Shown here piece by piece: positions 1 through 40,075 of a stretch of DNA of 64,000 nt. The notes beneath the pieces were generated by a model that made no database searches, had not been told where the DNA came from, and saw only the letters and a list, made by a program, of their open reading frames with translations. Both the position numbers and the translations under genes were made by a program. Within the stretch, counting starts at the first letter, position 1. Each line of letters begins with the position of its first letter. Where the stretch lies: the NCBI GenBank assembly GCA_003222085.1, contig QHUK01000007.1, forward strand, positions 1 through 64,000. The letters run 5' to 3'. The DNA is from Gemmatimonadota bacterium. Lineage in GTDB: Bacteria > Gemmatimonadota > Gemmatimonadetes > Gemmatimonadales > GWC2-71-9.

Positions 1-685
1 TTGCTGCCAGCCAGCCGATGCCCGTGCCGAGCGCCGCCCCGCCGAGGACGTCCGTCGGGAAGTGCTTCCCGGCGGCAACGCGCAGGGCGGCCACGCCGAG
101 GGCCCCGACATAGAGCAGCGCGGCGTTGCGGCCCCGGTGCGGCAGGTGCTCGCGCTGCGCCATCACGACATAACTTGTCGCCGCCGCGAACGCGATCGAC
201 GCGTGCCCGGACGGGAAGGAACGCTGGCTGTTGGGATCGCCCGCCGCCGCCGCCGCGTCCGCCGTGTACAGCACGGGTCGCTTACGGCGCACCAGTACCT
301 TCATCCAGTCGGTGGCGGCGAGCGTCCAGGCGAGCGAGTTGGCGAACACGGCGACGTGCCCGCGGCGCTGCGCCGCGGTCGCGCCGTCGAGCGACGCGAT
401 CCCGGCGAACCCGACGGTGCCCACGAGGAGTGCCGTGCTCATGGTGCCCGCCGATCCTGAGAAGGTGTGGAGGGCGGAGCGGTCGATACCCGGGAGCGAC
501 TGCGGATCGCACGGGGCACAGGACGGAGCGACCTTCGGGAGCTTCGTGGCGTCGGGGATGAGCGCGGCGACTCCGGCCGCGGCGACCGACACCGCGTCTC
601 CCCAGCGCAGGCTGTACGGCGCCTGCCCGGCCGCCGATGGGCCGGAAACGACGAGGAAGACGATGGCAGCGGCCAGGCGACGCAT
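1..685 (-). CDS. PAP2-family (type 2 phosphatidic acid phosphatase) membrane protein, partial
   Basis: The gene runs off the left edge, so only its first 228 residues are visible. It starts MRRLAAAIVFLVVSG, a signal peptide or first membrane segment. The three PAP2 active-site motifs are present in order: KVLVRRKRP (KxxxxxxRP), SFPSGHAS (PSGH) and RVAAGKHFPTDVLGG (SRxxxxxHxxxD type). Family members hydrolyse or transfer phosphate on lipid phosphates at the outer face of the inner membrane. It is divergent from the sphingolipid operon that starts 146 bp away, so a role in lipid phosphate turnover fits, but the substrate cannot be read from the sequence. Confidence 0.85.
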   Translation of the reverse strand, partial: MRRLAAAIVFLVVSGPSAAGQAPYSLRWGDAVSVAAAGVAALIPDATKLPKVAPSCAPCDPQSLPGIDRSALHTFSGSAGTMSTALLVGTVGFAGIASLDGATAAQRRGHVAVFANSLAWTLAATDWMKVLVRRKRPVLYTADAAAAAGDPNSQRSFPSGHASIAFAAATSYVVMAQREHLPHRGRNAALLYVGALGVAALRVAAGKHFPTDVLGGAALGTGIGWLAA

Positions 686-831: not shown

Positions 832-2040
832 GTGAGTACCGAGACCCTGCAGAACATCGCGTTATTCGAGAAGTGCAGGAGCTTCCTTCCCAAAGCGCGC
901 GAGGTGGAGGCGTCCGGGCTCCACGCCTGGTACAAGCCGATTTCCCGATCCGAAGACACGGTGGTCCTGATCGAGGGCAAAGAGCGGATCATGATGGGCT
1001 CCAACAACTATCTGGGGCTCACGCATCATCCGGAGGTCCTCGGCGCCGCGAAGGCGGCGCTGGATCGGTACGGCTCGGGCTGCACGGGGAGCCGCCTCTT
1101 GAACGGCACGCTCGATCTACACCAGCAGCTGGAAGCCGAGCTGGCGCAATTTTTCGGCAAGGAGGCCTGCCTCGTGTTTTCGACCGGCTACCAGGCAAAC
1201 CTGGGAATCGTGTCGGGACTGGTCGGCCGCGGGGACGTCGTCTTCCTGGACAAGCTGGACCACGCCTCGATCGTCGACGGCGCCAAGATGTCCTACGGCG
1301 AAACGGTGCGCTTCAACCACGGCGACCTGGGCCACCTCGAGCGGAAGCTGCAGGAGGTCCCGCCGGGCAGCGGCATCATGATCATCGTGGACGGCGTCTA
1401 CTCGATGGAGGGAGACGTCGCGGACGTGCCGAACCTGCTCAAGGTTGCGCAGAAGCACGGCGCTGCGCTCGCCATCGATGACGCCCACGCGGTGGGTGTG
1501 CTGGGCCCACGGGGCGACGGCACCGCCGCGCACTTCGGGTTGAGCGACGACGTGGACCTCATCGTAGGTACCTTCTCGAAGTCACTCGCGTCGATCGGCG
1601 GGTTCGTGGCGGGTCCGGAGGGCGTGATCGAGTTTCTCCGCTACAATGCACGGCCACTCATGTTCACGGCCGCCCTGCCGCCCTCTAACACGGCCGGCGT
1701 GCTCGCCGCATTGCACGTGATGCAGCGCGAGCCCGAACGCCGAGACTGTCTCTGGGTAAACGCTCGCCGCCTTCAGGAGGGTCTCCGCTCGATGGGGTTC
1801 GACATCGGCGCGACCGAGACGCCCATCGTCCCGTTCCTGATCGGGGAGTTCGAGAAAACACTGCTCTTCTGGCGCAAGCTGTTCGACGCCGGCGTGTTCA
1901 CCAATCCCGTCGTGCCGCCGGCGCTGCCGCCGTCGCGGTGCCGCCTGCGGACCAGCGTGATGGCGACGCACACGGCCGATCAAATCGACTACGCCCTGGA
2001 GACCTTCGGCAGGCTCGGAAAAGAGCTGGGGGTCATCTGA
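832..2040 (+). CDS. spt: serine palmitoyltransferase (alpha-oxoamine synthase family)
   Basis: This 402-aa PLP enzyme would condense L-serine with an acyl thioester to 3-ketosphinganine, the first step of sphingolipid synthesis. The fold-type I core is complete: NNYLGLTHHPEV near the N-terminus, the cofactor-stacking DDAHAVGVLG, and the Schiff-base lysine in TFSKSLASIGGF (Lys250). The GTG at 832 is chosen because the protein then has the usual family length and begins STETLQNIALFEKC; upstream in-frame codons run through the intergenic region. KBL and BioF enzymes share the fold, so sequence alone gives only the family. The following ceramide synthase-like and CerR-like genes make Spt the best call over BioF. 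Confidence 0.85.
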   Translation: MSTETLQNIALFEKCRSFLPKAREVEASGLHAWYKPISRSEDTVVLIEGKERIMMGSNNYLGLTHHPEVLGAAKAALDRYGSGCTGSRLLNGTLDLHQQLEAELAQFFGKEACLVFSTGYQANLGIVSGLVGRGDVVFLDKLDHASIVDGAKMSYGETVRFNHGDLGHLERKLQEVPPGSGIMIIVDGVYSMEGDVADVPNLLKVAQKHGAALAIDDAHAVGVLGPRGDGTAAHFGLSDDVDLIVGTFSKSLASIGGFVAGPEGVIEFLRYNARPLMFTAALPPSNTAGVLAALHVMQREPERRDCLWVNARRLQEGLRSMGFDIGATETPIVPFLIGEFEKTLLFWRKLFDAGVFTNPVVPPALPPSRCRLRTSVMATHTADQIDYALETFGRLGKELGVI

Positions 2041-2054
2041 GCACTCCGCAGATC

Positions 2055-3149
2055 GTGCCCGTGACCAACGGGCGCGGTCTGGAGCGGTTCATCGGCTTTC
2101 CTTACGACCTGCACCGCGGCGACCCACTGTGGGTGCCGCAGCTGCGGATGGACGTCCGGACCCTCCTCACGCCGGGCAAGAATCCCTTCTTCGAGCACGC
2201 CGAAGCGCAGTATTTCCTCGCCGTCCGGGACGGCCGCCCAGTCGGCCGCATCGCGGCCATCAAGAACGACGCCCATAACCGCGAGCATGGCGATCGGGTG
2301 GGATTCTATGGCTTTTTCGAGTGCGTGAACGAGCAGGCGGTGGCGAATGCCCTGTTCGACGCGGCCGCCCGGTGGCTCTCGGACAAGGACTTCCGGGTGA
2401 TGCGCGGACCGATGAACCCATCGGTCAATGACGATTGCGGGTTGCTGGTCGCGGGATTCGACACCCCTCCCACCATCATGATGCCGCACAACCCCCCATA
2501 CTATGTGGCCCTGCATCAGGGCTACGGCTTCACCAAAGCCAAGGATCTGATCGCGTTCGCGAGCCCGGAGGGCGACCCGCCCGAGCGCATCACGCGGGCC
2601 GTGAACGTCATCGCGCAGCGCAAGGGAATCACCCTGCGCCCGCTCAACATGAAGCGCTTCAAGGAAGAAGTGGAGCTGGTCAAGGCGCTGTACAACCAGG
2701 CATGGGAGCGGAACTGGGGGTTCGTTCCGCTGACCAATGCCGAAATCGACCACCTGGCGAAGCAGCTCAAGCCGATCGTGGTGCCCGACCTGGTGTGCTT
2801 CGCGGAGCGGAAGGGCCAGGTGATCGGATTCGCGGTCGCCCTGCCGGACTTCAACGTTGCCCTGAAGCACAATCCCTCCGGCCGGATCTGGGGCATCCCC
2901 AAGATTCTGTGGTACGCCCGGCGCATTCATCGTTGCCGCATACCGTTGTTGGGCACGCTGAAGGAGTACCGGGGGGCCGGCGTCGATGCGATGATGTACC
3001 ACTGGATCTGGACCAAGGGCGCGATCCACGGCTACCACTGGGGCGAGGGCGGGTGGATCCTCGAAGACAACGCCCCGATGGTCAACGCCGCGCTGCAGCT
3101 CAGCTTCCGCCCCTACAAGACGTACCGGGTCTACGACAAACCCCTGTGA
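2055..3149 (+). CDS. bcerS: bacterial ceramide synthase-like N-acyltransferase (GNAT fold)
   Basis: This is a 364-aa soluble protein of the acyl-CoA N-acyltransferase (GNAT) superfamily. The N-terminal part, with FLAVRDGRPVGRIAAIKN, and a second GNAT-like half, with VCFAERKGQVIGFAVALPD, suggest a double GNAT layout. Bacterial ceramide synthase of Caulobacter is an acyltransferase of this superfamily encoded near spt, and it N-acylates the 3-ketosphinganine product. Assignment here is by fold plus position: it lies 14 bp after spt and overlaps the CerR-like gene by 4 bp. The GTG at 2055 is the likely start; GTG at 2061 is an alternative. A different amine acceptor cannot be excluded. Confidence 0.7.
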   Translation: MPVTNGRGLERFIGFPYDLHRGDPLWVPQLRMDVRTLLTPGKNPFFEHAEAQYFLAVRDGRPVGRIAAIKNDAHNREHGDRVGFYGFFECVNEQAVANALFDAAARWLSDKDFRVMRGPMNPSVNDDCGLLVAGFDTPPTIMMPHNPPYYVALHQGYGFTKAKDLIAFASPEGDPPERITRAVNVIAQRKGITLRPLNMKRFKEEVELVKALYNQAWERNWGFVPLTNAEIDHLAKQLKPIVVPDLVCFAERKGQVIGFAVALPDFNVALKHNPSGRIWGIPKILWYARRIHRCRIPLLGTLKEYRGAGVDAMMYHWIWTKGAIHGYHWGEGGWILEDNAPMVNAALQLSFRPYKTYRVYDKPL

Positions 3150-4114
3150 GGGCATTCGTCACCGGCGGCACGGGGTTCGTCGGTGCGCATCTCGTGCGGG
3201 CGCTGCGCGCCCGGGGCGACACCGTGACCTGCCTGGTGCGAAGCACCACGAAGGCGCAGGCGCTCGGCTGGACCGACGTGCGTCTGATCCGGGGCGATCT
3301 GCACGATGCCCCGGCGCTGCGCGAGGGGTGCGCGGACGCCGAGGTGGTCTACCACGTGGCGGGCCGCATCAGCGCCCGCGATCTCGACGAATTCATGCGC
3401 GCCAACCGGGACGGCACGGCGAACGTGCTCGAGGCCGCGGCGCCGGTGTCGCTGCGACGCTTCGTGCTCGTCTCCTCGCTCGCGGCCGCGGGGCCGACCG
3501 TGCCCGGAAAGCCGATCGATGAGACCCGTCCTCCATCCCCCGTCACACCTTACGGGCAGAGCAAGCTCGCCGCCGAAGGACTCGTCCGGGCGATGGCCGG
3601 CTCGTGGACCATCGTGCGGCCGCCTACCGTGTATGGGGAGTGGGACCGGGAGGTCCTCAAAGTCTTCAAGCTGGCCCGCACGGGGTTGGCGCCGGTATTC
3701 GGTGATGGATCGCAGGAGCTGTCGGTCGTCTACGCCGGGGATCTCGCCGCGGCGCTCGTGGCGGCCGCCATCGCGCCGGCCGCGGCCAACCGGGTGTACT
3801 ACGCCGCGCATCCCGTGGTGATCACCAGCCGGGAGTTGGTCCGCGCAATCGGGCGGGCGGTGGGACGGGAGCCGCGCATCGTGCCGCTGCCCGGGCTCCT
3901 CGCCCGGGGCCTGCTCTGGACCATCGGTTCGATTGCGCATCTCGCCGGCCGGGCGACACTCTTGTCAGGCGATAAGGCGGCCGAATTCCTGGCGCCGGCC
4001 TGGACGTGCCGCGCCGATGCGTTGGCCCGCGACGCAGGGTGGCGGGCGGAAACCGATCTGGAAACGGGATTGCGGCGAACGGCAGCCTGGTATCGGAGGG
4101 AGGGGTGGCTGTGA
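3146..4114 (+). CDS. cerR: NAD(P)-dependent epimerase/reductase, CerR-like ceramide reductase
   Basis: This is a 322-aa extended short-chain dehydrogenase. It begins with the Rossmann glycine motif TGGTGFVG and carries the catalytic YGQSK (YxxxK) with an upstream serine in LVSSLAA. In bacterial sphingolipid synthesis a protein of this family (CerR) reduces the 3-keto group of the acylated intermediate. Its GTG start overlaps the stop of the acyltransferase gene (GTGA), and its own stop overlaps the start of the next gene in the same way, so the four genes are probably translated as one coupled unit. Without the context it would only be called an SDR-type sugar epimerase or dehydratase. Confidence 0.75.
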   Translation: MRAFVTGGTGFVGAHLVRALRARGDTVTCLVRSTTKAQALGWTDVRLIRGDLHDAPALREGCADAEVVYHVAGRISARDLDEFMRANRDGTANVLEAAAPVSLRRFVLVSSLAAAGPTVPGKPIDETRPPSPVTPYGQSKLAAEGLVRAMAGSWTIVRPPTVYGEWDREVLKVFKLARTGLAPVFGDGSQELSVVYAGDLAAALVAAAIAPAAANRVYYAAHPVVITSRELVRAIGRAVGREPRIVPLPGLLARGLLWTIGSIAHLAGRATLLSGDKAAEFLAPAWTCRADALARDAGWRAETDLETGLRRTAAWYRREGWL

Positions 4115-5043
4115 GTCTGCGCAGCGCCGTGGCGTCGTGGCGTCGTGGCGTCGTGGAACGCCTCACCGCCGTGGACGTCGTCACGCTGCTCTACGTCGCC
4201 GTCGCGACGGCCGCGGTCCTGGCGTTCTCCGGTCAGGACCACGCCAGCTGGGATCTGCTGCTCACCGCACACGCCCTGCTCGTGACGCTCGTGCTCGTCG
4301 CGCCGCTCGCCCGCCAGTCCGGGCCCGTGGGTCGGTTCCTGGGCGATTGGTACCCGATGCTCCTGCTCGGCGCGCTGTACGCGGAGGTCGGTGTGCTGAA
4401 CGTCGATCTCGGTTACCAGCACGACCAGGTCATTCAGCGGCTCGAGCTGTGGGTGTTCGGCTCCCAGGTGTCCTACCGCTGGATCCGCGAGATGCCGAAT
4501 CCCCTGCTCTCCTGGTTTCTACACGGCTGCTACCTCGCGTATTACGCCATTCTCTATGCGTCGCCGCTCGGTCTCTGGTTCAGCGGGCGGCCGGACGCGG
4601 CGCGACGCACGATCTTCGCCGTGATGGTGACCTTCTACCTCTGCTACGTGGTGTTCCTTTTCTTTCCCGTGGCGGGGCCGCGCTACACCTTCGAGCTGGC
4701 CCACAACGCGGCCACGTCCGTCTGGCCGGCGCGCGCCACCCAGTGGCTGCTCGACCTCGGTGACTCATGGGGCGCCGCCTTCCCCTCGTCGCACGTGGCG
4801 GCCGCCGTGGTCGCGGCACTGTGCGCCCTGCGCTACTGGCGGCCTCTCGGCCTGCTGCTCACGCCGTTGACGCTCGGACTGGTGCTGTCGGTGGTGTACG
4901 GCCAATTCCACTATGCGGTGGACGCCATGGCCGGACTGATCGTGGCATGCGCCGTGCTCGCGTCGCAGTACATCTACGCGTCGCAGCCCGCCGCCGTCAC
5001 AGCCCCGATGCCCGGACGCGAGCTCGAGACGGGACGCGCCTAG
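4111..5043 (+). CDS. PAP2/Aur1-type integral membrane phosphotransferase, candidate sphingolipid headgroup transferase
   Basis: This 310-aa protein has about seven or eight membrane segments. The PAP2 catalytic motifs are in the diverged form seen in inositol-phosphorylceramide synthase (Aur1) and related PAP2_3 proteins: [18 protein letters not shown] and [11 protein letters not shown] with the catalytic His and Asp. It is the fourth gene of the sphingolipid operon and starts inside the stop codon of the reductase gene (GTGA). Enzymes of this type move a phospho-alcohol headgroup from a glycerolipid to ceramide, or remove a lipid phosphate. Transfer to ceramide is inferred from context. The stop codon overlaps that of the convergent gene. 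An 8-bp tandem repeat sits just after the start codon. Confidence 0.75.
4128..4156 (+). repeat. 8-bp tandem repeat, 3.6 copies, near the 5' end of the PAP2/Aur1-like gene
   Basis: The unit CGTGGCGT is repeated three times, followed by CGTGG. It begins 17 bases after the GTG start. Because the unit is not a multiple of three, gain or loss of one copy would shift the reading frame. The encoded residues ([11 protein letters not shown]) precede the first membrane segment. Confidence 0.85.
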
Positions 5044-5651
5044 CGGGTAATACTGCCGGCCGCACGTGAGGCGACCGTATCCAGGTCGCCCCCCAGCGCG
5101 TCCATCTTGAGCTGGAAGCGGCAGTCGATCACCAGCAGCCCGATCACGTAGGCCGCCAGATTCACGAAGAAGATCACGCTGAAGATCACCGGATACGGAA
5201 ACCACATCCCGAAGTACAGCGCGAACCGCTTGACCCCGGGGTCGAGCTTCGAGCGGTCGGCGATGCTCGTCATCAGCAGGATCGCGGCGAGCGCGATCGA
5301 CATCAGCTTCCACGAGACGAGGCCCGTCCACGCGAACCCGGCGAAAATGGCCGCCTCGGACAGGCGGTCGACCAGCGTGTCGAGCCGCCGCCCCGATTCG
5401 GACGCGAGGCCGTACGCGCGCGCGATTCCCCCGTCGATCCCGTCCAATACCTGGCCGAGCGCCATCAGGCCGAGCCCCCCCGCCCACCCCGGCCGGCCCG
5501 TCGCGACCGCGACGCCTGCCGCCACGCTCACCGCGAACGCCGCCCAGGTCACCTGCGCCGGCGACAGGCCGAGCGTCTCGTGGCACAGCCGCAGCACCGG
5601 CTGGATCGCGCGGTCGAAGATGCGTCCGATCGCGGGTGCGAAGTCAAACAC
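5040..5651 (-). CDS. CDP-alcohol phosphatidyltransferase family protein
   Basis: This 203-aa membrane protein has the family signature DGxxARx8Gx3Dx3D, seen as DGGIARAYG followed by [10 protein letters not shown] and preceded by the extra Asp in QVLDGID. The aspartates bind the divalent metals that position the CDP-alcohol. About six membrane segments follow the short N-terminal helix. Such enzymes swap CMP for an alcohol, for example inositol, serine or glycerol phosphate. It is the last gene of a long leftward run and overlaps the upstream gene by 8 bp. The substrate cannot be told from the sequence. The stop codon shares bases with the convergent gene in a CTAG. Confidence 0.85.
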
Positions 5652-6087
5652 GATGCCGCAACCAGTAGACGCCGACGTTGCCCGCGAGGAGCGCGAGGAA
5701 CAGGATCCCCTCTTTCGCCTTGTCTGGAATGCTCGTCAGCCAGCCGCGCGTGACCCACGGAGAGTACGGGTAGAACGGCATCTTCTCGAAGCGGATACTG
5801 TAATCCATGGCAACGTGAATCGCGAAGAACAGGATCGGCAGCGGCGTTCCGAGAAACACGCACAACGGCACGATCCAGAGCAGCGCCACCGGCTCCTGCA
5901 GCGAGGATCGCCAGTAGTAGCCGCGCTTGTCCCGGAGGCCGATCGCCCGCAGGTAGAGAGGGGCCTTGACCGCGTGGTCGATGTCGACGCCCATACCGAA
6001 CGCGTAGGCAAGGACCCTGTCCCGCCCCTCGAGGCCCATCGCCTGGACGCCCAGCGTGGTCGCGAGGAAGTGCGTGACGATCGTCAC
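5644..6087 (-). CDS. YdjM-like (DUF457-type) inner-membrane protein
   Basis: This 147-aa protein has three or four membrane segments, an early histidine in [12 protein letters not shown], and a metal-site-like [11 protein letters not shown], the pattern of the YdjM family of small membrane-bound putative metal-dependent hydrolases. It starts with GTG inside the stop of the flippase-like gene (GTGA). A second member of the same family opens this gene run at 15170-15628. No biochemical role is established that could be carried over with confidence; handling of a lipid intermediate is a guess from context. Confidence 0.65.
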
Positions 6088-7082
6088 GGTGCCGCGGCGC
6101 GCGCCTGAGCCCCGCGTCCCGAGAACCACACGAGGGCGAGCCCGCCCCCGATCCAGGCGAGATCCCGGAGGCGGCTCACGATGGCAGTATAAACGCCGAG
6201 GGCCGGGTCGAGCCCCAGCAGCTGGAACACGAGGTAGAGCGAGCCCTCCTTGGTCCCGACCTCGAACGGCACGACGAAGATCACGTTCTGGACGAGGGAG
6301 GTAAGGCCGCCGATGACGTAGGCCTGCGCGTAATCGATGGTCAGGCCGACGCCCAATGCGATCAAGAGGTACTCGATCATGAAGATCGAGCGGCTGAGAT
6401 ATTCCAGCGCCACCGCCTGCACGAACCGCCGGGGGTGCCGGTGATAGAGCGCGGTGATCTGCTCGTCCATTTGCGCCAGGGTGGCGCGTTTCGGCTCGAG
6501 GCGGCGCGCCACGCGATCGAGCAGCGGCAGCCGGTGCAGCAGGTCCAACAGCCCCTCGAGCCCTCCGCGACGGTGGCCCGTCACGAGGAGCACGACGAGC
6601 GCGGCCAGCACGACGAACGCGAGGGCCAGGAACGCGAGGATCGCGGGATGAGGCGGGAGCAGCAGGGCGCCGAGCACGACTGCCGTGAGGAAGCTGAGCA
6701 GCATGCCCAGCGTGTGCAGCATCTGGTAGAGGACGACGGAACCAGCCGCCCGCCGCAGGCCCAGCCACGGTGCGACCGCGGCGATCTTGAACGGCTCGCC
6801 GCCCACGTTGACCATGGGCGTGATGAAGTTGAGCGAGAAACCGGCGACGGTGATGGCGTACGCGCGCCAGAACGGCGGACGGCTCGCCTCGTCGGCCATG
6901 CTGAGCCACCACGCTCCCGCGTTGCAGGCGCACACGACGCCGTACAGCAGGACGATCGGCACGAACAGCCACCCGGTCCGCACGGTATCGGCGAGGAGCC
7001 GCGCCACCCCGATGCGTGTCACCAGGTACCCGAAGATCGCGGAGCCGCCGACGAACAGCAGCAGCTGCAGCTTGCGGCTCAC
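6084..7082 (-). CDS. lysylphosphatidylglycerol synthase TM-domain (UPF0104) flippase-like protein
   Basis: This 332-aa polytopic protein has about eight membrane segments and the family landmarks FITPMVNVGGEPFK and FEVGTKEGSLYLVF. The domain forms the flippase half of MprF and also occurs as stand-alone proteins thought to move lipid-linked molecules across the membrane. The GTG at 7082 is chosen because it overlaps the stop of the dehydrogenase gene (GTGA) and gives a start directly before the first membrane segment. Its place between lipid headgroup genes suggests it translocates the finished or precursor lipid. No synthase domain is attached. Confidence 0.75.
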   Translation of the reverse strand: MSRKLQLLLFVGGSAIFGYLVTRIGVARLLADTVRTGWLFVPIVLLYGVVCACNAGAWWLSMADEASRPPFWRAYAITVAGFSLNFITPMVNVGGEPFKIAAVAPWLGLRRAAGSVVLYQMLHTLGMLLSFLTAVVLGALLLPPHPAILAFLALAFVVLAALVVLLVTGHRRGGLEGLLDLLHRLPLLDRVARRLEPKRATLAQMDEQITALYHRHPRRFVQAVALEYLSRSIFMIEYLLIALGVGLTIDYAQAYVIGGLTSLVQNVIFVVPFEVGTKEGSLYLVFQLLGLDPALGVYTAIVSRLRDLAWIGGGLALVWFSGRGAQARAAAP

Positions 7083-8128
7083 GCGCCGTCCGGGATCGTG
7101 ACCGTGGCGCCGTTTCGGGCGGCGACGTACGCGTGCTCGACGACGGTCGCCACCCGCCGGATGTCTTCCAGAAAGGGTCGCGCCGCCGCGCCGGGGTCGT
7201 CGCGATCGAGCGCCGCCACGAACGCCTCGAACAAGCCCGCAAACCAGCGGTGATACGCGGTTTTCTCGAGCTCCGCCGAGCAATCGAGCCGCTCGACCGC
7301 GCCCGCCCGCTCGAGGCGCAGCTCGCCGCCCGACCATTCGATTGCGCCGGCGTCGCCGACGAAGCGGATACGATTCTCGCGCGCCCGCGCGGCCCACGTG
7401 AAGAACATGGTGACCAGCCGGCCGGGATATTCGAACCGCAACGCCGCCGTGTCCTCCACGTCGTAGGCGGCGTGCCGCAGGCGACCGGTCCAGGCGCTCA
7501 CGCTCGCCGGCATGCCGGCGATGTCGAGCAGCTGATACACGAGATGGGTGCCGTGATCCAGTAACACACCGCCCCGTCCGGCCGAGCTCGTGCCGCGCCA
7601 GGGGGTCCCCGCCGCCACCCGGCCGGGGTCAGCCGCGGTGCGATGGACCGAGAACTCGGCCAGGTGCCAGCGCCCGATGGCGCCGCCCGCGAGCCATTCC
7701 TTGATCTTCATCCAGACCGGGTTGTGGCGGTATTGATGGCACGGCATCACGATGCGCCCGCTGGCCCGGGCCGCGGCCGCGATCCGGTCCGCCTCGCCGC
7801 GCGTGAGCGCCACCGGCTTCTCGCACACCACGTGGTAGCCCTGCCCGAGTCCCCAGAGGGTGAGCTCGAGGTGCGAGGCGGTCGGCGTGCAGATGTCGAT
7901 GAAGTCGAGCGGAGCGAGGTCGCGGAGCTGTTCGCGCCGGCCGAGCAGCGGAATCGCCTCCACGCGGGGCACGTCGACCGCGCTGTCCACCAGCGCGACG
8001 ACCTCGACGCGGCCGCGGACGGCCGCCGCGTCGCGGAGCGCGGGGAGGTGCGACTGCCGCGCGATGCCGCCCGCCCCGATCACGGCACCGCGGTACCGCT
8101 TCCGCTCAGGTGATCCGGGCGTATGCAT
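7079..8128 (-). CDS. Gfo/Idh/MocA-family NAD(P)-dependent sugar/polyol dehydrogenase
   Basis: This 349-aa protein has an N-terminal Rossmann fold starting GAVIGAGGIARQSHLPAL and the hallmark CEKPVALT motif whose lysine is catalytic. An alpha/beta substrate domain with DHGTHLVYQLLD follows. Family members oxidise a ring or chain hydroxyl to a ketone, for example in inositol, glucose or UDP-sugar derivatives. Together with the class III aminotransferase two genes away it could convert a hydroxyl to an amine by oxidation then transamination. It overlaps the CDP-alcohol transferase gene by 23 bp and the flippase gene by 4 bp. The substrate is not readable. Confidence 0.8.
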   Translation of the reverse strand: MHTPGSPERKRYRGAVIGAGGIARQSHLPALRDAAAVRGRVEVVALVDSAVDVPRVEAIPLLGRREQLRDLAPLDFIDICTPTASHLELTLWGLGQGYHVVCEKPVALTRGEADRIAAAARASGRIVMPCHQYRHNPVWMKIKEWLAGGAIGRWHLAEFSVHRTAADPGRVAAGTPWRGTSSAGRGGVLLDHGTHLVYQLLDIAGMPASVSAWTGRLRHAAYDVEDTAALRFEYPGRLVTMFFTWAARARENRIRFVGDAGAIEWSGGELRLERAGAVERLDCSAELEKTAYHRWFAGLFEAFVAALDRDDPGAAARPFLEDIRRVATVVEHAYVAARNGATVTIPDGA

Positions 8129-9008
8129 TACGCTCGCTGTCGAGCAAGTCGCCGAGCGCGGTAGCGTTCCACTCGTGGATCCAGAGGAGCGCGACCAGCA
8201 CCAGACTCATCCACACGGCCTCGGCCCATAGGAACGCGGAGACGTGGGCGGCGACGGCCGCCACGCCCAGCAACACGAAGCGGATGTTCTGGCCGAGCCA
8301 GGCGCACAACGGCAGCACGACCTCCTGGCGCGCACGGTACTCGGCGCGGAACGCGTCGGTGACGCCGCGACGTCGCAGGAGGCGGATGAGTTTCACGGAT
8401 CGCGGGAAGAGATGCACCTGCCGCTCCACGTAGTCGCGGTAGACGCGCGCGCCGAAGCGCTGGAGCACGGTCGCTCGCCGCTCGCCGTCGAGGTCCTCCG
8501 GCAGGTCCAGCTCGCCCCCGGTGCCGACGCCGATGTACAAGAAGGCGTTGCGCACGAAGTCTATGGCGGCGCTCTGGAAAGTGTGGGCCAGTCCCGCGGC
8601 GGCGACCAGCAGAAACGCGCCCGGCCCCCAGAACCCGCTGTGGATCAGCCGGTAGATGAGGTGGAAGTACAGATTGACGAACCGGAGGTTGTCGCTGATG
8701 CCGTCCAGCGCGCGGCCGAAGCGCGTGGAGCTGCCCCGCAGCCGCGCCAGCTGGCCATCCGCCGAGTCGAAGATGTCCGAGACGATGAAGAGGACGAAGC
8801 CGATCGCGTTGGTCCAGCGGTCCCGGTACGCAAACAGGTGGCCGGCGACGAGCCCGATCGCGAGCGACCACAGCGTTACCTGGTCGGCCGAAATCCCCGT
8901 CCGCTGGAGCGCGCGCGCGATCCGGATGCCGATGGGGCGGAAGAAATGCAGGTCCGCCCACTCCTCGACCGCACGGCCCTTATGCGATAAGTCGGTCTGC
9001 GGCTTCAC
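8106..9008 (-). CDS. CDP-alcohol phosphatidyltransferase family protein (second copy, longer)
   Basis: This 300-aa protein carries the full catalytic signature in DSADGQLARLRG and FGRALDGISD. It is longer than the 203-aa paralog at 5040-5651, with about 60-80 additional residues between membrane segments, including FGARVYRDYVERQVHLFP, a loop probably exposed to the cytoplasm. Proteins of this longer type occur beside nucleotidyltransferases that make the CDP-alcohol donor. One such gene lies at 11190 in the same run. It overlaps the aminotransferase gene by 29 bp. The reaction type is certain from the motif; donor and acceptor are not. Confidence 0.85.
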   Translation of the reverse strand: MKPQTDLSHKGRAVEEWADLHFFRPIGIRIARALQRTGISADQVTLWSLAIGLVAGHLFAYRDRWTNAIGFVLFIVSDIFDSADGQLARLRGSSTRFGRALDGISDNLRFVNLYFHLIYRLIHSGFWGPGAFLLVAAAGLAHTFQSAAIDFVRNAFLYIGVGTGGELDLPEDLDGERRATVLQRFGARVYRDYVERQVHLFPRSVKLIRLLRRRGVTDAFRAEYRARQEVVLPLCAWLGQNIRFVLLGVAAVAAHVSAFLWAEAVWMSLVLVALLWIHEWNATALGDLLDSERNAYARIT

Positions 9009-10320
9009 CGAGCACGTCCTTCATCGTCGCGAGGGCGCCCATCGCCTGATCCTCGTCGATCACCAGGGGGGGATTGATGCGAACCTCGGGGTTGTAGATC
9101 ATCGCGAGCACGCCTCGGGCCAGCAGCGTGTCGAAGATCCAGCGCGCCGTCTTCTTGTCGAGCAGCTGGCGGGTCCCGGGGACGACCAGGTCCATCCCGA
9201 TCATGAGGCCTCGGCCCCGCACGTCCGACACGATCGGCAGCTCCGCTTCCCAGCGCTGCATCTCCGCCAGCATCTTGTCGCCGAGCCGCCGGGCATGCTC
9301 CACCAGCTGGTCCTCGACGATCGTCTCGATCGTGACACGCGCCGCCGCCGCCGCCAACGGATTGCCCCCGTAGGACGACGAGCTACCGCTGGGGTTGGCC
9401 CAGGGCTTGGAGAACGCGATCGCTTCGCGCGCGATCACGCCGCTCATCGGAAAGCCCCCGCCGAATCCCTTCCCGACCGTGAGCACGTCGGGGAGCACGC
9501 TGTCGTGCTCGATCGCGAACATCTTGCCGGTGCGCCCGAACCCGGTGATCATCTCGTCGCAGATCAGGAGCGCGCCCAGCTCGTCGGCGAGCTCGCGCAA
9601 CAGCTTCAGGTAGCCCGGCGGGGGGACCACATTCCCCGCCGTACCCTGGATCGGCTCCACGAGGATCGCCGCCACGTCGCGCGTCGTCTCCAGCTGGATC
9701 TTGTGCCGCAGGAAATCCACGCAGTGCCACTCGCACGACGGGAACGTCTTGTCGAAGGCGCAGCGCGCGCACGCGGCGTAGGGTGAGAGGTAGGCGCCGG
9801 GCATCAGCGGCCCGAGCGCGTGCTTGAAGCTCGAGCCGAGCAGCGGCAGCACGCCGCCCGTCTTCCCGTGGAACCCGCCCCAGAAACCGATGACCTCCGT
9901 ATGGCCCGTGCGTGACTTGGCGAGCCGCAGCGCCGCCTCGATCGCTTCGGCCCCGCTCGAGTAGAACTGCGAGCGATTCAGATCGCCGGGCGTGAGCTCG
10001 GCGAGCAGCTTCACGAGCGCCGCGCGATGCTCCGTCGCGAAGCTGCCGACGTGCACGCGCGCGATCTGCCGCTGCATCGCCGCGACGTATTTGGGATGGG
10101 CGTATCCGATGCTCGCCACGCCCACGCCGGCCAGCAGGTCGACGTAGCGGTTGCCGTCCACGTCGTACAGGAGGGCACCCTCCCCGCGGTCGATGGCGAG
10201 CTGGCTGAACAGCGCCACGCTCTGTGTGCCCGGCGCGAGGTACATCGCCTCCGCGTCGAACACGGCCTTGGACCTGGGACCCGGAAGGGAGAGCTGGGCG
10301 CGGCGCAGCGTGTCCGTCAC
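8980..10320 (-). CDS. class III PLP-dependent aminotransferase
   Basis: This 446-aa enzyme has the class III features: SSGAEAIEAALRLAK, a PLP-stacking region FWGGFHGKTGG, LICDEMITGFGRTG, and the Schiff-base lysine in TVGKGFGGGFPMSG. A Cys-rich insert, CARCAFDKTFPSCEWHC, matches a C-x2-C-x9-C-x3-C pattern seen in part of this family. GTG at 10320 overlaps the stop of the ATP-grasp gene (GTGA) and fixes the start. The family aminates aldehydes or ketones of omega-amino acids, polyamines and amino sugars. Beside the Gfo/Idh dehydrogenase it would supply the amine of an amino-polyol. A 4-aminobutyrate or ornithine-type role is possible but less suited to the neighbourhood. Confidence 0.85.
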   Translation of the reverse strand: MTDTLRRAQLSLPGPRSKAVFDAEAMYLAPGTQSVALFSQLAIDRGEGALLYDVDGNRYVDLLAGVGVASIGYAHPKYVAAMQRQIARVHVGSFATEHRAALVKLLAELTPGDLNRSQFYSSGAEAIEAALRLAKSRTGHTEVIGFWGGFHGKTGGVLPLLGSSFKHALGPLMPGAYLSPYAACARCAFDKTFPSCEWHCVDFLRHKIQLETTRDVAAILVEPIQGTAGNVVPPPGYLKLLRELADELGALLICDEMITGFGRTGKMFAIEHDSVLPDVLTVGKGFGGGFPMSGVIAREAIAFSKPWANPSGSSSSYGGNPLAAAAARVTIETIVEDQLVEHARRLGDKMLAEMQRWEAELPIVSDVRGRGLMIGMDLVVPGTRQLLDKKTARWIFDTLLARGVLAMIYNPEVRINPPLVIDEDQAMGALATMKDVLGEAADRLIA

Positions 10321-11162
10321 GCGTGGTTCCGATGAGCAATGCGATGGGTGATGTAGGCCGCGATCGCCTGGGCCGCGTCCTCGCGAAACGGCGCGAAGCT
10401 CGGCCAGTCGTTGATGTCGATCAGCACCGGGCGGTCGGGCTCCGGAAACGCGACATCGCCTCCGAACACCTCGAGCCCCAAGATCGCCGCGGCCTCGAGC
10501 GCGAGCGCCTGGAGCCGGTTCTCGTCCACCGCGGGCCGCTCGCCGGCAAACCCTGCTTCCGAGCCGTACCAATTGAAGAAGCGACCGTCGGTCACACCGT
10601 AGAACTTCACGACCGGACCGGGAACGTGCTCCTGCAGCGCCACCCAGGCGATGCCGCGTCGCGTGAACGCCTGCAGCGCCTCCGCCACCTGGTCGAGCGA
10701 AGTCGCGACTACGTCCTCGGGCCGCTCCGCATGCACGTCACCCCGCTTGATCCAGACCTTCTGATGATCGGGGCTCAAGGCCTTGAGCTGGCCGGCGGGC
10801 GGGAGCGGCGCAGAGCTCGCATGAATGAGCGTCCGAGGGAAAGGCACCATGCTGTCGCCCAAACGCTTGACGAGGCGGTAGCGATGGCAGTTCAGCGCGC
10901 TCGAGGGACGGTTCACCACGACCGCGCCGTCGGACTCGAGCGGCATGAGCTGTTCGGCCGCGAGGGAGCCCTGGCACATGTTGAGGTACAGCGGCGCAGC
11001 CGGAAGGCGGCCCTGCTCGACCTCCAGCTCGGTGGTCTTGATCGCCCGCCAGCCCTGAGCTTCGAGCCGCGCGACCGTCGCATCCATGATGGCCGTGTCG
11101 TTCACGCGATGCTGCAGCGGTGAGTACGATGGGCTGCGGTAAATCGCGACCAGTGGGCCCAA
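10317..11162 (-). CDS. ATP-grasp-fold enzyme (RimK/ITPK-like), function unknown
   Basis: The C-terminal half of this 281-aa protein reads as an ATP-grasp domain: KVWIKRGDVHAERPEDVV for nucleotide contact, ALQEHVPGPVVKFYGV, then VFGGDVAFPEPDRPVLIDIND with acidic metal ligands. The DIND-W-P ending resembles inositol tris/tetrakisphosphate kinases (IDIN-x-FP) about as much as RimK-type ligases (ExN). The enzyme could therefore phosphorylate a polyol or join an acid to an amine. It sits between the nucleotidyltransferase and the aminotransferase. The fold is fairly sure; the reaction is not. Confidence 0.6.
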   Translation of the reverse strand: MGPLVAIYRSPSYSPLQHRVNDTAIMDATVARLEAQGWRAIKTTELEVEQGRLPAAPLYLNMCQGSLAAEQLMPLESDGAVVVNRPSSALNCHRYRLVKRLGDSMVPFPRTLIHASSAPLPPAGQLKALSPDHQKVWIKRGDVHAERPEDVVATSLDQVAEALQAFTRRGIAWVALQEHVPGPVVKFYGVTDGRFFNWYGSEAGFAGERPAVDENRLQALALEAAAILGLEVFGGDVAFPEPDRPVLIDINDWPSFAPFREDAAQAIAAYITHRIAHRNHA

Positions 11163-11189
11163 GACGGTGTCGCTCCTCGAGTCCGATGT

Positions 11190-11918
11190 TTAGGTTTCGC
11201 GCGCGGCGAGCCACGCGTTGGCGTGCTGGAGATCTGTTGGCCGATCGATGTCGATGATGCGCGCCACTTCCACCGCCGCCACTCGCCGCCCGGCCGCGAC
11301 GACCGCCTTCAGGAAGCCACGCATCCTGTTCGCGCCGCCGGCCACCGCCTCCGCCGCGGCGCCGCGAATCCCGGCGCTCAAGCCGTAGACCCCTCCGGTG
11401 ACGCACGGAGGATGAACCGGCTCGTCGCTCAGGCCCCGGACGTCGTCCCCCCCGTCCCCCCCGTCCCGCCCGCCCCGGCTGACGTACACAGGAGACTCGT
11501 CGTCCACGTACGGCGTCACAGCGAGCACCAGTTCCGCGCCTCCCCCCAAGTGCCGCTCGGTCGCCCGGTAGACCACCCGCCAGTCGGCAGGTCGCATCAC
11601 CGTATCCACCATGCTGCAGAACACGGGGCCCGCCGGCACGGCCCGCAGCCCCTCGACCAACGTGTGCAGCGAAGATGGCGTGCGACACTCCACCACCGTA
11701 AGGGGGGGGCCGAACCGCCTCCCGTCAAGCAAGCGGGCGACGGCCGGAAAGTCCGCACGAACGGCGCAGGCGAGACTCCGACACCCCAGTGCGGCGAATG
11801 TCTCGAGCAGACCAATGATCTGGGGCCGCCCAGCCACTTCGACCAGAGGCTTGGGCACGCCGATTCCACCCGCCGCGAGCCGCGACCCCTCTCCCCCGGC
11901 GAGGATCAACCCGTGCAC
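11190..11918 (-). CDS. MobA/GlmU-like NTP-transferase (sugar- or polyol-phosphate nucleotidyltransferase)
   Basis: This 242-aa protein opens HGLILAGGEGSRL followed by GVPKPLVEVAGRP, the nucleotide-binding loop and lysine of sugar-phosphate nucleotidyltransferases; SMVDTVM provides the metal-binding Asp. It would activate a phosphorylated sugar or polyol as an NDP or CDP donor. With two CDP-alcohol transferases in the run, a cytidylyltransferase of the inositol-1-phosphate type is attractive, but base choice cannot be read. An acidic, glycine-rich loop, GGRDGGDGGDD, is encoded by a short repeat around 11448-11482. GTG at 11918 follows the HAD stop by one base. Confidence 0.75.
   Translation of the reverse strand: MHGLILAGGEGSRLAAGGIGVPKPLVEVAGRPQIIGLLETFAALGCRSLACAVRADFPAVARLLDGRRFGPPLTVVECRTPSSLHTLVEGLRAVPAGPVFCSMVDTVMRPADWRVVYRATERHLGGGAELVLAVTPYVDDESPVYVSRGGRDGGDGGDDVRGLSDEPVHPPCVTGGVYGLSAGIRGAAAEAVAGGANRMRGFLKAVVAAGRRVAAVEVARIIDIDRPTDLQHANAWLAARET
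11448..11482. repeat. low-complexity C-rich repeat inside the nucleotidyltransferase gene
   Basis: The plus strand reads as imperfect copies of CCGTCCCCC, about 9 bp each. It encodes an Asp/Gly-rich loop on the minus strand. It is in frame and probably a surface insertion in the enzyme. Confidence 0.6.
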
Positions 11919-11919
11919 G

Positions 11920-12579
11920 CTACTCGAGCACCCTTTCGACCTCGGGAAGGCGACCGATCCGCGCCGTGACGACGCGCTCGCCCCCCGGCGGCGCCGTCCG
12001 TTCGGACGGAGCGAGCCAGCACGTGCGGAGGCCCACCCCGGCCGCGCCGCGGATGTCCGCCTCGAAGTTGTCGCCCACCATCCAGGCCCGCTGCGGCGCG
12101 ACCTGGAGGGCGGCCAACGCATGCCCGAAGATGCGCGGGTCGGGCTTGCTCCAACCGACCAGGGCGGAGTCGCTGAGCACGGCGAACAATCTCGCCAGAC
12201 CAAGCTCCTCCAAACAAGGCCGCAAGTTCCCGGTGAAATTGGACACGACACCGAGCCGGTAGCGCCCGGCGAGCCGTTCCAGGACCGGGCGGTTGCGTGC
12301 GACGACCTCGAGCGCTTGGGCGTGCAGCCGGCGCGCGAGGGCGCGGGCGTCCACGGGGTCGGGCACGAGCTCGACGAGCAGCCGGGCCTGAGCTTCGATG
12401 GCGGCGCGAAACCCGAGCGCCCGAATGCCCGGCAGGCGCGCGAGGGCGTCGCCCGAGACCTGGAAGAAGGAATCGAAGGCCGCGAAGTCGAGTCCGCCGC
12501 CCACGCCGCGATAGGCGGCATGGAAGCGAGGACTCCAGTGCACTCCGTCGGCGTCGAGGGTGCCCCCGAAGTCGAACAG
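11920..12579 (-). CDS. HAD-superfamily hydrolase (phosphatase)
   Basis: This protein of about 219 aa has all four HAD motifs: FDFGGTLDADG near the start (nucleophile position Asp), VVSNFTGN (motif II), WSKPDPRIF (motif III Lys) and MVGDNFEADIRG (motif IV). The first ATG/GTG/TTG in frame is the GTG at 12543, which lies after motif I and would remove the nucleophile. The reading frame is open upstream to 12633 and has a CTG at 12579 giving MFDFGGTLD, so that CTG is taken as the start. It probably dephosphorylates a pathway intermediate, judging by its place directly before the nucleotidyltransferase gene. Confidence 0.75.
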   Translation of the reverse strand: MFDFGGTLDADGVHWSPRFHAAYRGVGGGLDFAAFDSFFQVSGDALARLPGIRALGFRAAIEAQARLLVELVPDPVDARALARRLHAQALEVVARNRPVLERLAGRYRLGVVSNFTGNLRPCLEELGLARLFAVLSDSALVGWSKPDPRIFGHALAALQVAPQRAWMVGDNFEADIRGAAGVGLRTCWLAPSERTAPPGGERVVTARIGRLPEVERVLE

Positions 12580-32754: not shown

Positions 32755-33969
32755 TTAGTGGCGCTCGCGCTCCAGGGCGTCGGCCGCGAGGCGCGGTGAG
32801 AGCATCGGGTAGCGGCCGCCGAACCAGCCATAGGACAGGAGAAACAGCCCACCGAACAGCAGCGTGCTGGCGGTCTCGGGGAGGCCGATCGCCGGGCCGA
32901 CGCCGCCGTTGATCGAAGGAACGATTTCGAGGTAGCGCTCGAGCCAAGTGCCCGCCAGGCTCAGGAGCGCGAATGTCACGAATGTCGGGGCGTGCTTCTT
33001 CGGCTTCACCCCGAGCAGGCCGATGAACGGCACGACGAACACGAGCAGAAAGACCCACACGCCGACGGGTTTCCAGGAGCCGATCAGCCGGTAGAAGATG
33101 AAGTACGTCTCCTCCGGCAGGTTACCGTACCAGATCACGAGAAACTGCGCCCACATGAGGTACGCCCAGAAGACCGTGAACCCGAAGCACAGTTTGCCCA
33201 AATCGTGCAGCTGCCTGGGCGAGATCAGCGCCTCCAGCCCCATCCGGCGCCGCACCGCGATCGCAAGCACGGCGAGCCCCATGAGCGCCGCGAGGAAGCA
33301 ACCCATGAAGTAGAACGCGCCGAACAGGTTGCTCACCCATTTGTGCGCGAGCGACATGATCAGGTCGAACGCCAGCAGGCTGTAGCCGAACGCGTAGGAG
33401 ACGACCAGGACGGCCGCGTCGCGCATGATGGCATCGCGGTCTTCCAGCCGATCCGCCGGCCGGCCGCCCTGGGCCAGCTCGCGGATGTCGGGTGCCACGT
33501 CGCGCCGCACGAACCGCCACGACAACCACGCGAGGAGCAGATAGATCAGGCCGTTCCGTACGAAGAAAAACTTCGCCGTCAGCCAGCTCCCCAGATCGGG
33601 ACGCGGCTCGTGCAGCCAACCGAAGATGTGCGCCCGGCCGACGACCAGCCCCAGGTACAACGCCAGCGAGAGCCACAGGAACGCGGCCGCCGCTTCGGCG
33701 AGCCGGATGACGAGTCCGGACCAGTGTCCCTTGGCGAGTTTCTGGGTCGCGGCGAACACGACCAGCGCCTGCGCCAGCCCGGTCCAGAACATGAAGTTGA
33801 CGTGCCACGCCTGCCATGCGCGCGGCGCTCCCCCGACGGCGAGCACCCACAGGAACGCGCCCCCTCCGACGACGGCCAGGAGCGCCCCCCCCAACGTGAA
33901 TGCCCGCGCGGGAAACTGGCGCGCCTTCTGGACCAGCTCGGAGCGCGGGCCGGCCGCGACCGCGCTCAT
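32755..33969 (-). CDS. actF: alternative complex III subunit ActF (quinone-interacting membrane subunit)
   Basis: This 404-aa polytopic protein has about ten membrane segments and family features such as WFGGRYPMLSP at the end and WAYLMWAQFLVIWYGNLPEET in the middle. It is a smaller relative of ActC-type quinone-binding subunits. In alternative complex III it helps hold the quinol site and the membrane arm. Its ATG overlaps the stop of actE (ATGA). It is the last gene of a six-gene unit; no cytochrome oxidase genes follow. Confidence 0.88.
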   Translation of the reverse strand: MSAVAAGPRSELVQKARQFPARAFTLGGALLAVVGGGAFLWVLAVGGAPRAWQAWHVNFMFWTGLAQALVVFAATQKLAKGHWSGLVIRLAEAAAAFLWLSLALYLGLVVGRAHIFGWLHEPRPDLGSWLTAKFFFVRNGLIYLLLAWLSWRFVRRDVAPDIRELAQGGRPADRLEDRDAIMRDAAVLVVSYAFGYSLLAFDLIMSLAHKWVSNLFGAFYFMGCFLAALMGLAVLAIAVRRRMGLEALISPRQLHDLGKLCFGFTVFWAYLMWAQFLVIWYGNLPEETYFIFYRLIGSWKPVGVWVFLLVFVVPFIGLLGVKPKKHAPTFVTFALLSLAGTWLERYLEIVPSINGGVGPAIGLPETASTLLFGGLFLLSYGWFGGRYPMLSPRLAADALERERH

Positions 33970-34523
33970 CGTCTCCCCCGCGGGCTCTGCGCCCCGGCCT
34001 GCAGCGTGCGTACGTAATTCACGACGTCCCAGCGATCGCTGCCCCGCACCTTGTCTCCGTAGACGGGCATCAGGCCCCGTCCCATCACCTGGCCACTCAC
34101 CAGGACCGCGTAGATGTATCCGTCGGTGCGGCGGGCGATCGTGTCGTTCACGAGCGAGCGCACACCGAAGAACGGCCCCCCCGCCGCGGACGAAATCGGA
34201 CCGTCGCCGCGCCCCGCCTGCCCGTGGCAGACGAGGCAATAGGTCTCATACAGAACGCGCCCGCGATTGATCGACTCGGACGTGCGAGTGCGGGCGTTTA
34301 CCAGACGATCCGCGGTCTGGATGCTGAGCACCGGTTCGGCACCCGTCACGGGCACGGTCCCGGGGACGGGCGGGATCGGCTGGGCGTACGGCTTGATGCT
34401 CCGCTGATGCCGCATGGTGGAGAACCAGCCGACGCGGTGCACCACGTCGTCGGGGTTGCAGCCAAGGGCGGCAAGGGCGGCAAGGGCGGCAAGGGCGGCA
34501 AGGGCGGCACGCGGCCTACGCAC
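33966..34523 (-). CDS. actE: alternative complex III subunit ActE (mono-heme cytochrome c lipoprotein)
   Basis: This 185-aa precursor has one CxxCH heme site in YETYCLVCHGQ and a Met ligand region MPVYGDKV. The leader is made of AAL repeats ending LGC, a lipobox, so it should be anchored in the membrane by lipid. GTG at 34523 is chosen since it gives a short basic n-region (RRPR) before the hydrophobic stretch. The leader is encoded by a 9-bp tandem repeat. ActE passes electrons from the ActA heme chain to carriers. Its start overlaps the end of actD by 8 bp. Confidence 0.88.
   Translation of the reverse strand: MRRPRAALAALAALAALAALGCNPDDVVHRVGWFSTMRHQRSIKPYAQPIPPVPGTVPVTGAEPVLSIQTADRLVNARTRTSESINRGRVLYETYCLVCHGQAGRGDGPISSAAGGPFFGVRSLVNDTIARRTDGYIYAVLVSGQVMGRGLMPVYGDKVRGSDRWDVVNYVRTLQAGAQSPRGRR
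34461..34508. repeat. 9-bp tandem repeat encoding the ActE signal peptide core
   Basis: About five copies of GCAAGGGCG (plus-strand reading) are in tandem. On the minus strand they encode repeated Ala-Ala-Leu, forming the hydrophobic core of the ActE lipoprotein leader. Copy number change keeps frame and changes leader length. Confidence 0.88.
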
Positions 34524-35061
34524 GACGCACCTCTTCGGCTCCCGCGGCGCGTAGCAGCGATTCGACCTGGCCCGCCCGCGCCGGCTCGGACGGCACGAAG
34601 ATGCCGAACTTGTCGTTGGTGAACCGCGCATCGTAAGCCACGGTGCCCAGGCGCCGGGCGGCGAACAGCGCGTTGAACGCGATGCCGAGGATGGTGGCAA
34701 GGGCGCCGAACAGGATCGTCATTTCGAACATGATGACGACGTACGGTGGGATCGAGCCGATCGGCTTGCCGCCGAGCACGAGCGGCCAATCGTACGACAT
34801 GTACAGCGTGAGCCAGGCGCCGATGGCGCAGCCCGCGATCCCGCCGATCAAGGTGAACATCCGGACGGGGCTGACCGGCTGATCGAGCGCATCCTCGAGC
34901 TCGTGCCGGGGAACGGGAGAGTACACCGTGAAGTCGGTATGCCCGCCCCGCCGCAGCTGCCCGATCGCCTCCACCGTGGCGTCGAGGTGACCGAACACCG
35001 CCAGCACGCCCGGTGTCGGCGGCGGGTGGAAGATGGCCGTGAGGGGGTTCACGAGCTTCAC
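34516..35061 (-). CDS. actD: alternative complex III subunit ActD (DUF3341)
   Basis: This 181-aa protein matches the DUF3341/ActD family: GVLAVFGHLDATVEAI at the start, YSPVPRHELEDAL, and two membrane segments (MFTLIGGIAGCAIGAWL and IMFEMTILFGALATILG), then a soluble tail FTNDKFGIFVP. In the complex it is a peripheral-to-membrane subunit next to ActC. GTG at 35061 overlaps the stop of actC (GTGA). Confidence 0.9.
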   Translation of the reverse strand: MKLVNPLTAIFHPPPTPGVLAVFGHLDATVEAIGQLRRGGHTDFTVYSPVPRHELEDALDQPVSPVRMFTLIGGIAGCAIGAWLTLYMSYDWPLVLGGKPIGSIPPYVVIMFEMTILFGALATILGIAFNALFAARRLGTVAYDARFTNDKFGIFVPSEPARAGQVESLLRAAGAEEVRRA

Positions 35062-36401: not shown

Positions 36402-36405
36402 CGCC

Positions 36406-39390: not shown

Positions 39391-39400
39391 ACGTCGGGCC

Positions 39401-39979
39401 TCAGTAGTGACACACGGTGCAATCGCGCGAGACGTTGCGCTGCACGTGGCAGTTGACGCACCAGCCCATCTTGAGCGTGGCGACCTGGTACACCTGCGGC
39501 ATGCTGCGCACGTCGCCGTGGCAGGTGATGCAGCTCTCGGTGCCCAGGATCTTGATGTGCCGCTGGTGCGGGAAGCGCACGAAACCCGGCAGCGCGTGCA
39601 CGCGCGTCCACACGGGCGGCCGCTTGTTGATCCACGCCTCGCGCACCTTTTTGATCTCCGCCTGATTGGTCGGCTCGGCGTTGGAGCCGCCGATTATCTG
39701 GTGACAGCCGAAGCAGGTCTGCACCGCGGGGATCCCCGGCTCGCTCGAGATGGTCACCGTGCTGTGACAATAGAGGCAGGGGATCTGATCCTGACCGGCG
39801 TGGACGTCGTGACGGAAAAAAATGGGCTGGCGGGGACCCTTGAGGCGCCCCGTGTCGCTGATGACGGGAGCTTTATACGCGGACGCGGACTGACCGGTTT
39901 GTGCCGCGGCCGGGAAAGCGATCAGCAGTGCGATCGCGACGCCCCCCCCGGTCCCGACCCCACCACTCCTCTTCGTCAT
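39401..39979 (-). CDS. actA: alternative complex III subunit ActA (pentaheme cytochrome c)
   Basis: The 192-aa protein has five CxxCH sites: CLYCH, CFGCH, CITCH, CVNCH and CTVCH, with extra histidines (FRHDVH, FPHQRH) as distal ligands. A signal peptide ends near AAAQ. It is the first gene of the act operon. The chain of hemes links ActB to periplasmic acceptors. The 108-bp upstream gap must carry the operon promoter, but no clear consensus is visible. Confidence 0.93.
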   Translation of the reverse strand: MTKRSGGVGTGGGVAIALLIAFPAAAQTGQSASAYKAPVISDTGRLKGPRQPIFFRHDVHAGQDQIPCLYCHSTVTISSEPGIPAVQTCFGCHQIIGGSNAEPTNQAEIKKVREAWINKRPPVWTRVHALPGFVRFPHQRHIKILGTESCITCHGDVRSMPQVYQVATLKMGWCVNCHVQRNVSRDCTVCHY

Positions 39980-40059
39980 CCGGCGCGCTCGATGGCGAAT
40001 GGTATCAATCTGTGTTGTGAAATTGATTGCGGGCGCCGGAATGTAGCGTCAGTGATAAA

Positions 40060-40075
40060 CGGGGCACAAGCCCCG
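40060..40075 (-). terminator. rho-independent terminator after the 156-aa gene
   Basis: CGGGGC and GCCCCG with a 4-base loop. Read leftward it is followed by TTTATC. It sits between the stop of the gene at 40089 and the act operon promoter region, so it would insulate the act operon. Confidence 0.6.

Follow-up and report, generated by a model that had tools for sequence, protein, structure and literature searches.

To our knowledge, few of the enzymes that attach polar head groups to ceramides in bacteria have been identified. The core genes for the ceramide itself, Spt, bCerS and CerR, are widespread and known from many phyla (PMC11334938). In Caulobacter and E. coli BL21 the set comprises spt, acpR, epi/cerR, aasR and aca/yghO/bcerS (PMC9386255, PMC11087976). 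A plasmid operon of Rubrobacter radiotolerans (L152:8905-14497) has the order Spt-bCerS-CerR and continues with a gene of the LTA-synthase family. For the head-group step, the points of comparison are the yeast inositol-phosphoceramide (IPC) synthase Aur1 (9vj4, 9ivc) and the phosphoinositol dihydroceramide synthase BT_1522 of Bacteroides (NF052609; PMC9246714); in addition, an alternative inositol-lipid cluster of the B. vulgatus type has been proposed for Bacteroidota and is unproven (PMC9246714). Here we examined a window of 64,000 nucleotides, the beginning of an 82-kb contig from a metagenome-assembled genome (MAG) of 3.54 Mb. The host, a soil bacterium, belongs to the little-studied Gemmatimonadota, as shown by the closest relatives that have names (Gemmatimonadetes soil MAGs and Gemmatimonadales); this point was left conditional in a first-pass annotation of this DNA. 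Four consecutive genes at 832-5043, spt, bcerS, cerR and pap2, probably constitute a single unit with coupled translation, which would produce a phosphorylated ceramide by means of an Aur1-fold PAP2 protein.

Operon organisation and conservation

The genes of the unit are as follows.

832-2040, plus strand: spt, serine palmitoyltransferase (SPT)-like pyridoxal phosphate (PLP) enzyme, 402 aa
2055-3149, plus strand: bcerS, ceramide synthase-like tandem GNAT N-acyltransferase, 364 aa, GTG start
3146-4114, plus strand: cerR, reductase of the extended short-chain dehydrogenase/reductase type, 322 aa, GTG start, Epimerase PF01370
4111-5043, plus strand: pap2, PAP2 membrane protein with predicted Aur1 fold, 310 aa, PF14378 at 71 bits, candidate ceramide head-group phosphotransferase

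The first-pass annotation had proposed a four-gene sphingolipid unit here, and all open reading frames and junctions were found as it had placed them: spt and bcerS are 14 bp apart, and the starts of cerR and pap2 each overlap the preceding TGA stop codon (GTGA). A strong ribosome site, GGAGGGAGGGG, lies about 6 nt upstream of the pap2 start. A codon model derived from the window itself scored all four genes as coding; a promoter and terminator scan gave nothing exceeding shuffles.

Compared with the Caulobacter/E. coli BL21 genes, to which the window Spt, bCerS and CerR are 44, 34 and 29% identical, the operon differs in gene order and coupling, lacks AcpR and the acyl-AMP ligase, and has PAP2 as a fourth coupled gene. 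It shares its order of the first three genes with the Rubrobacter operon (49, 39 and 37% identity for Spt, bCerS and CerR), in which, however, PAP2 is not the next gene. The LTA-synthase family gene there is perhaps a different head-group enzyme at the same position. On a Roseomonas plasmid (L153), bCerS stands beside a sterol desaturase family gene, LptF/G permeases, a CDP-alcohol transferase and a lipid-kinase-like gene, possibly another plasmid-borne sphingolipid cluster.

Loss of gene order in related genomes had been named beforehand as a sign that would speak against the unit. The order Spt-bCerS-CerR-PAP2 was retained almost throughout the loci of the 30 best relatives, occurred in the majority of genomes in two Gemmatimonadales families, and was also present in loci of Eisenbacteria and KSB1. 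The bCerS-CerR overlap was -4 in 25/25 Gemmatimonadales loci measured. Because of this constant overlap and the recurrence of the four-gene order in two families, the arrangement is not a product of chance. Among 200 Gemmatimonadota genomes PAP2 was present in 85, bCerS in 106 and both in 83 (Fisher p = 7e-32, a statistic that ignores shared descent). In 58 of these 83 genomes PAP2 lay within about 1.1 kb downstream of bCerS, on the same strand; another 10 had it nearby. Variants exist. Two loci of other Gemmatimonadota (L165, L166) have the order CerR-Spt-bCerS-PAP2, with PAP2 after bCerS. G069 (locus L154), a near-complete genome from the host's family, has kept Spt-bCerS-CerR and lacks both PAP2 and MIPS, possibly a co-loss.

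The probable ceramide-forming enzymes

Against NCBIfam, the product of the first gene scored 503.8 bits with SerpalmtaseCFB, 393.9 with bioF and 368 with KBL. The best match in the PDB was the SPT of Sphingobacterium (427.8 bits), compared with KBL (267), CFAT (258) and BioF (223). The PLP lysine is K250 in TFSKSLAS, an SKS motif aligned with those of SPTs. The curated SPT equivalog cut-offs were missed (503.8 vs 640 bits for the CFB model and 424.2 vs 500 for the beta-proteobacterial one). Therefore, the protein is SPT-like and stands outside the named SPT subfamilies. The missed cut-offs would also fit another alpha-oxoamine synthase, i.e. KBL, BioF, or CFAT for sulfonolipids. We consider this highly improbable: the SPT scores exceed those of KBL, CFAT and BioF by 100-200 bits, and bCerS and CerR follow directly downstream. 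Best hits to BioF or KBL had been named in advance as evidence against an SPT; the scores clearly favoured SPT over both, and on the NCBIfam and PDB results all three identities were rejected.

The E. coli proteins used for comparison came from a record, bearing the same cluster, of a 7.3-Gb plasmid collection. bCerS is 33.6% identical to YghO over 369 columns and 99% of its length (E 2e-67). It had no Pfam match at the default threshold; its AlphaFold model (31 sequences, pLDDT 92) was best matched by tandem GNAT proteins (E 4e-13). CerR is 28.8% identical to E. coli epi/CerR, ECD_02852 (E 5e-29). The published assignment (PMC9386255), which we follow for the link to Caulobacter, pairs YghO (ECD_02850) with CC_1154 and ECD_02852 with the reductase CC_1164 as orthologues. 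In Caulobacter, CerR is reported to be periplasmic (PMC11087976). The window CerR begins with MRAFVTGGTG, i.e. with a Rossmann motif right at the start. Thus, a Caulobacter-type ceramide route, as initially suggested, holds for the three homologous enzymes; genes for an acyl carrier protein and an acyl-AMP ligase dedicated to that route are absent from the operon. Judged by these sequence relationships, the products of spt, bcerS and cerR very likely synthesise ceramide. Spt would join serine and an acyl thioester to 3-ketosphinganine, bCerS would N-acylate it, and CerR would carry out the ketone reduction that yields dihydroceramide.

The PAP2 protein and its fold

The first-pass annotation had called the fourth gene product a PAP2/Aur1-type transferase and proposed a structure comparison. 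A search of the PDB with the single protein gave no match. In contrast, its AlphaFold model (27 sequences, pLDDT 90) had two yeast Aur1 entries (9vj4, 9ivc) as top Foldseek and VIA matches over the whole chain, with Z scores of 17.7 (251 residues) and 17.6 (270 residues) and a Foldseek E of 1.2e-4. The human SMS-related protein (SMSr) matched with Z 11.7. In addition to the predicted fold, the positions of a His-His-Asp triad are shared.

4792-4794, plus strand: H228 of PAP2 (FPSSH), aligned with Aur1 H255 in a profile alignment, invariant in 27 homologues
4909-4923, plus strand: H267 and D271 of PAP2 (HYAVD), aligned with Aur1 H294 and D298 in a profile alignment, invariant in 27 homologues

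We take H255, H294 and D298 to be the catalytic residues of Aur1. As modelled, PAP2 is a probable ceramide head-group transferase. Using a His228-His267-Asp271 site, it would transfer the phosphorylated head group of a glycerophospholipid to the 1-OH of ceramide, and the most likely product is a phospho-ceramide. The data show the genes with their close spacing and overlaps, the families they belong to, the conservation of their linkage and the Aur1 fold as predicted; from there on, every catalytic step of the unit, from Spt to PAP2, is inferred.

Does PAP2 instead act as an ordinary lipid phosphatase within a ceramide operon, with ceramide-1-phosphate, PGP or undecaprenyl pyrophosphate as substrate? 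Membership in the PAP2 superfamily would agree with this, as would weak matches of some homologues to undecaprenyl phosphatase models. LpxE, YodM and PgpB matched the predicted fold at Z 9-14. Yet the phosphatases covered just 163-184 residues with Z of at most 14.3, and the whole-chain match was limited to Aur1. The phosphatase motif K-x6-RP is missing from the operon PAP2, whereas it is present in the neighbouring classical PAP2 at 2-685. Furthermore, PAP2 is linked to bCerS/CerR in a dedicated manner across phyla. A phosphatase therefore appears unlikely.

CerR-PAP2 pairs in Bacteroidota

In the plasmid collection the operon PAP2 matched only Bacteroides finegoldii and Prevotella sp. oral taxon 299, and in both the PAP2 gene is located directly after a CerR homologue. 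The pair was also found in four more Bacteroidota genomes.

L169:5700-7663, L172:5621-7681 and L197-L200: CerR-PAP2 pairs of Bacteroides, Prevotella and relatives

With a profile of operon PAP2s built without them, the CerR-linked Bacteroidota PAP2s scored 138-153 bits, compared with 28 for a BT_1522-like protein. One of these genomes, G453, has the CerR-linked PAP2 together with a complete BT_1522-type cluster (MIPS, PgpA-like, GtrA-like, PIPS, PAP2, LPG; the PgpA-like and GtrA-like labels were assigned by eye).

Several points weigh against the proposed unit and its head-group enzyme. Sequence identity of PAP2 to Aur1 is only 17%, and by sequence profile LpxE and AUR1 tie (E ~0.004). With the BT_1522 phosphatidylinositol (PI)-dihydroceramide synthase model NF052609, PAP2 reached 19.3 bits at a cut-off of 480. 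The coexistence in G453 makes a second PI-ceramide synthase less likely in that genome. 23 of the 106 bCerS-positive Gemmatimonadota genomes are without PAP2; PAP2 thus is not obligatory. The missed SPT cut-offs belong here as well. Membership in the BT_1522 family was ruled out by the NF052609 result and the 28 bits of the converse comparison; what is shared with BT_1522 is the PAP2 superfamily and the proposed ceramide head-group step. Of the PAP2/Aur1-type transferase initially read from the sequence, the Aur1-like fold was borne out by the model; a place among IPC synthases of the BT_1522 family was not, and the head group is not necessarily inositol.

Tentatively, we propose a single family of bacterial ceramide head-group phosphotransferases, separate from BT_1522, that takes in the CerR-linked PAP2s of Gemmatimonadota as well as those of gut Bacteroides and Prevotella. 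Its Bacteroides member would be a ceramide phosphoethanolamine (EPC) synthase or, in species that have the alternative cluster, the PI-dihydroceramide synthase, for which the HAD protein has provisionally been named.

The phospholipid donor

Which glycerophospholipid may PAP2 use? The host genome has MIPS beside PIPS, the PI-phosphate synthase, on another contig (C64; PIPS 158.5 bits, canonical motif RARAEGLGLTAKVGIAQRAER). Since this pair is encoded in its own genome, PI is probably made by the host and would be available as donor. PI may be the donor, and we rate it only slightly more likely than phosphatidylethanolamine (PE), which is a serious alternative. With PE the pathway would be the same, the product ceramide phosphoethanolamine, and the family would include the EPC synthase of Bacteroides. 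The alternative must be taken seriously because of three points: G453 carries both PAP2 types; in B. thetaiotaomicron, deletion of BT_1522 abolished PI-dihydroceramide and spared PE-dihydroceramide (PMC9246714); and a homology search revealed no EPC synthase in this bacterium (PMC8791184). The match of SMSr to the PAP2 fold points in the same direction, although Aur1 and not SMSr was the top match. The distribution of MIPS speaks against PE, weakly and with phylogenetic confounding: MIPS was present in 4/4 Bacteroidota genomes with a strong CerR-PAP2 pair versus 3/21 others and in 85/85 PAP2-positive Gemmatimonadota, and G069 has neither PAP2 nor MIPS. This co-occurrence does not, in our view, prove that the head group is inositol. 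The 85/85 is weak because MIPS is near-universal in the phylum (184/200), G069 is a single co-loss, and the Bacteroidota count, 4/6 versus 3/21, is taxonomically confounded.

Neighbouring genes

The genes on both sides of the operon and two distant clusters are as follows.

2-685, minus strand: divergent classical PAP2 phosphatase, PF01569 at 70.7 bits, KVLVRRKRP...PSGH...H, cut by the contig end, unrelated to the operon PAP2
5040-5651, minus strand: CPT1, CDP-alcohol phosphatidyltransferase, full D..DG..AR...G...D...D motif, convergent with pap2
5644-6087, minus strand: small membrane protein, no Pfam match, conserved beside CPT1
6084-7082, minus strand: LPG-synthase-TM/flippase-like protein, PF03706, 33% identical to a gene of the B. 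finegoldii inositol-lipid cluster (E 1e-48)
7079-8128, minus strand: Gfo/Idh/MocA oxidoreductase, by family match
8106-9008, minus strand: CPT2, CDP-alcohol phosphotransferase, 29-32% identical over most of its length to the homologue of the Bacteroidota alternative cluster (E 1e-34 to 1e-39)
8980-10281 (start uncertain), minus strand: class III aminotransferase, PF00202 at 310 bits
10317-11105, minus strand: ATP-grasp-like protein, 33% identical to a 'hypothetical protein' of the B. finegoldii cluster (E 4e-40)
11190-11918, minus strand: nucleotidyltransferase, putatively forming CDP-inositol, 30-32% identical to three nucleotidyltransferases of Bacteroidota clusters (E 1e-34)
11920-12543, minus strand: HAD-family hydrolase, 28-37% identical to the HAD protein of Bacteroidota clusters (E 1e-18 to 1e-24)
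32755-40559, minus strand: by eye, alternative complex III respiratory cluster-like
48985-51992, minus strand: by eye, cluster resembling pyrroloquinoline quinone synthesis (PqqB-, PqqC-, PqqD-, PqqE-like), beside ABC transporter genes

CPT1 adjoins the operon also within the genus and in genome G024. As a PI-phosphate synthase it was rejected: it is without the PIPS-specific RAER motif, which the C64 gene has.

Gene for gene, the region 6084-12543, convergent with the operon, has its counterpart in the alternative CDP-inositol lipid cluster of Bacteroidota, with E values from 1e-18 to 1e-48; the shared genes are those for the nucleotidyltransferase, the ATP-grasp protein, the CDP-alcohol phosphotransferase, the LPG-TM protein and the HAD protein. 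In the plasmid collection only four Bacteroidales records matched the window nucleotidyltransferase. Compared with the B. vulgatus-type cluster (PMC9246714), MIPS is not in the vicinity, and an aminotransferase, a Gfo oxidoreductase, CPT1 and the small membrane protein are extra. Given the added aminotransferase and oxidoreductase, one may speculate about an amino-cyclitol head group.

This homology raises the question whether the head group comes mainly from the nucleotidyltransferase and CPT2, with ceramide as acceptor and PAP2 in a side role. In G052, a genome of family f2 of the same order, a CDP-inositol-type cluster is again convergent with Spt-bCerS-CerR, and PAP2 is not adjacent. However, CPT2 was found in just 17/61 relatives and PAP2 in 41/61, and most of the relatives that have the four-gene operon do not have the cluster beside it. 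We regard a main role of this cluster as unlikely and retain PAP2 as the probable head-group enzyme.

Implications

Literature searches returned no paper connecting Gemmatimonadota with sphingolipids or sphingolipid genes, and none on bacterial PAP2 inositol-phosphoceramide. The new elements are an enzyme of predicted Aur1 fold coupled to the ceramide genes, the persistence of this linkage from phylum to phylum, and the connection to Bacteroides. The tie between PAP2 and the ceramide genes consists of the reading-frame overlaps in the operon together with this cross-phylum linkage. PAP2 thereby is a direct candidate for the head-group enzyme in Gemmatimonadota and, via the CerR-PAP2 pair, in the tractable Bacteroides.

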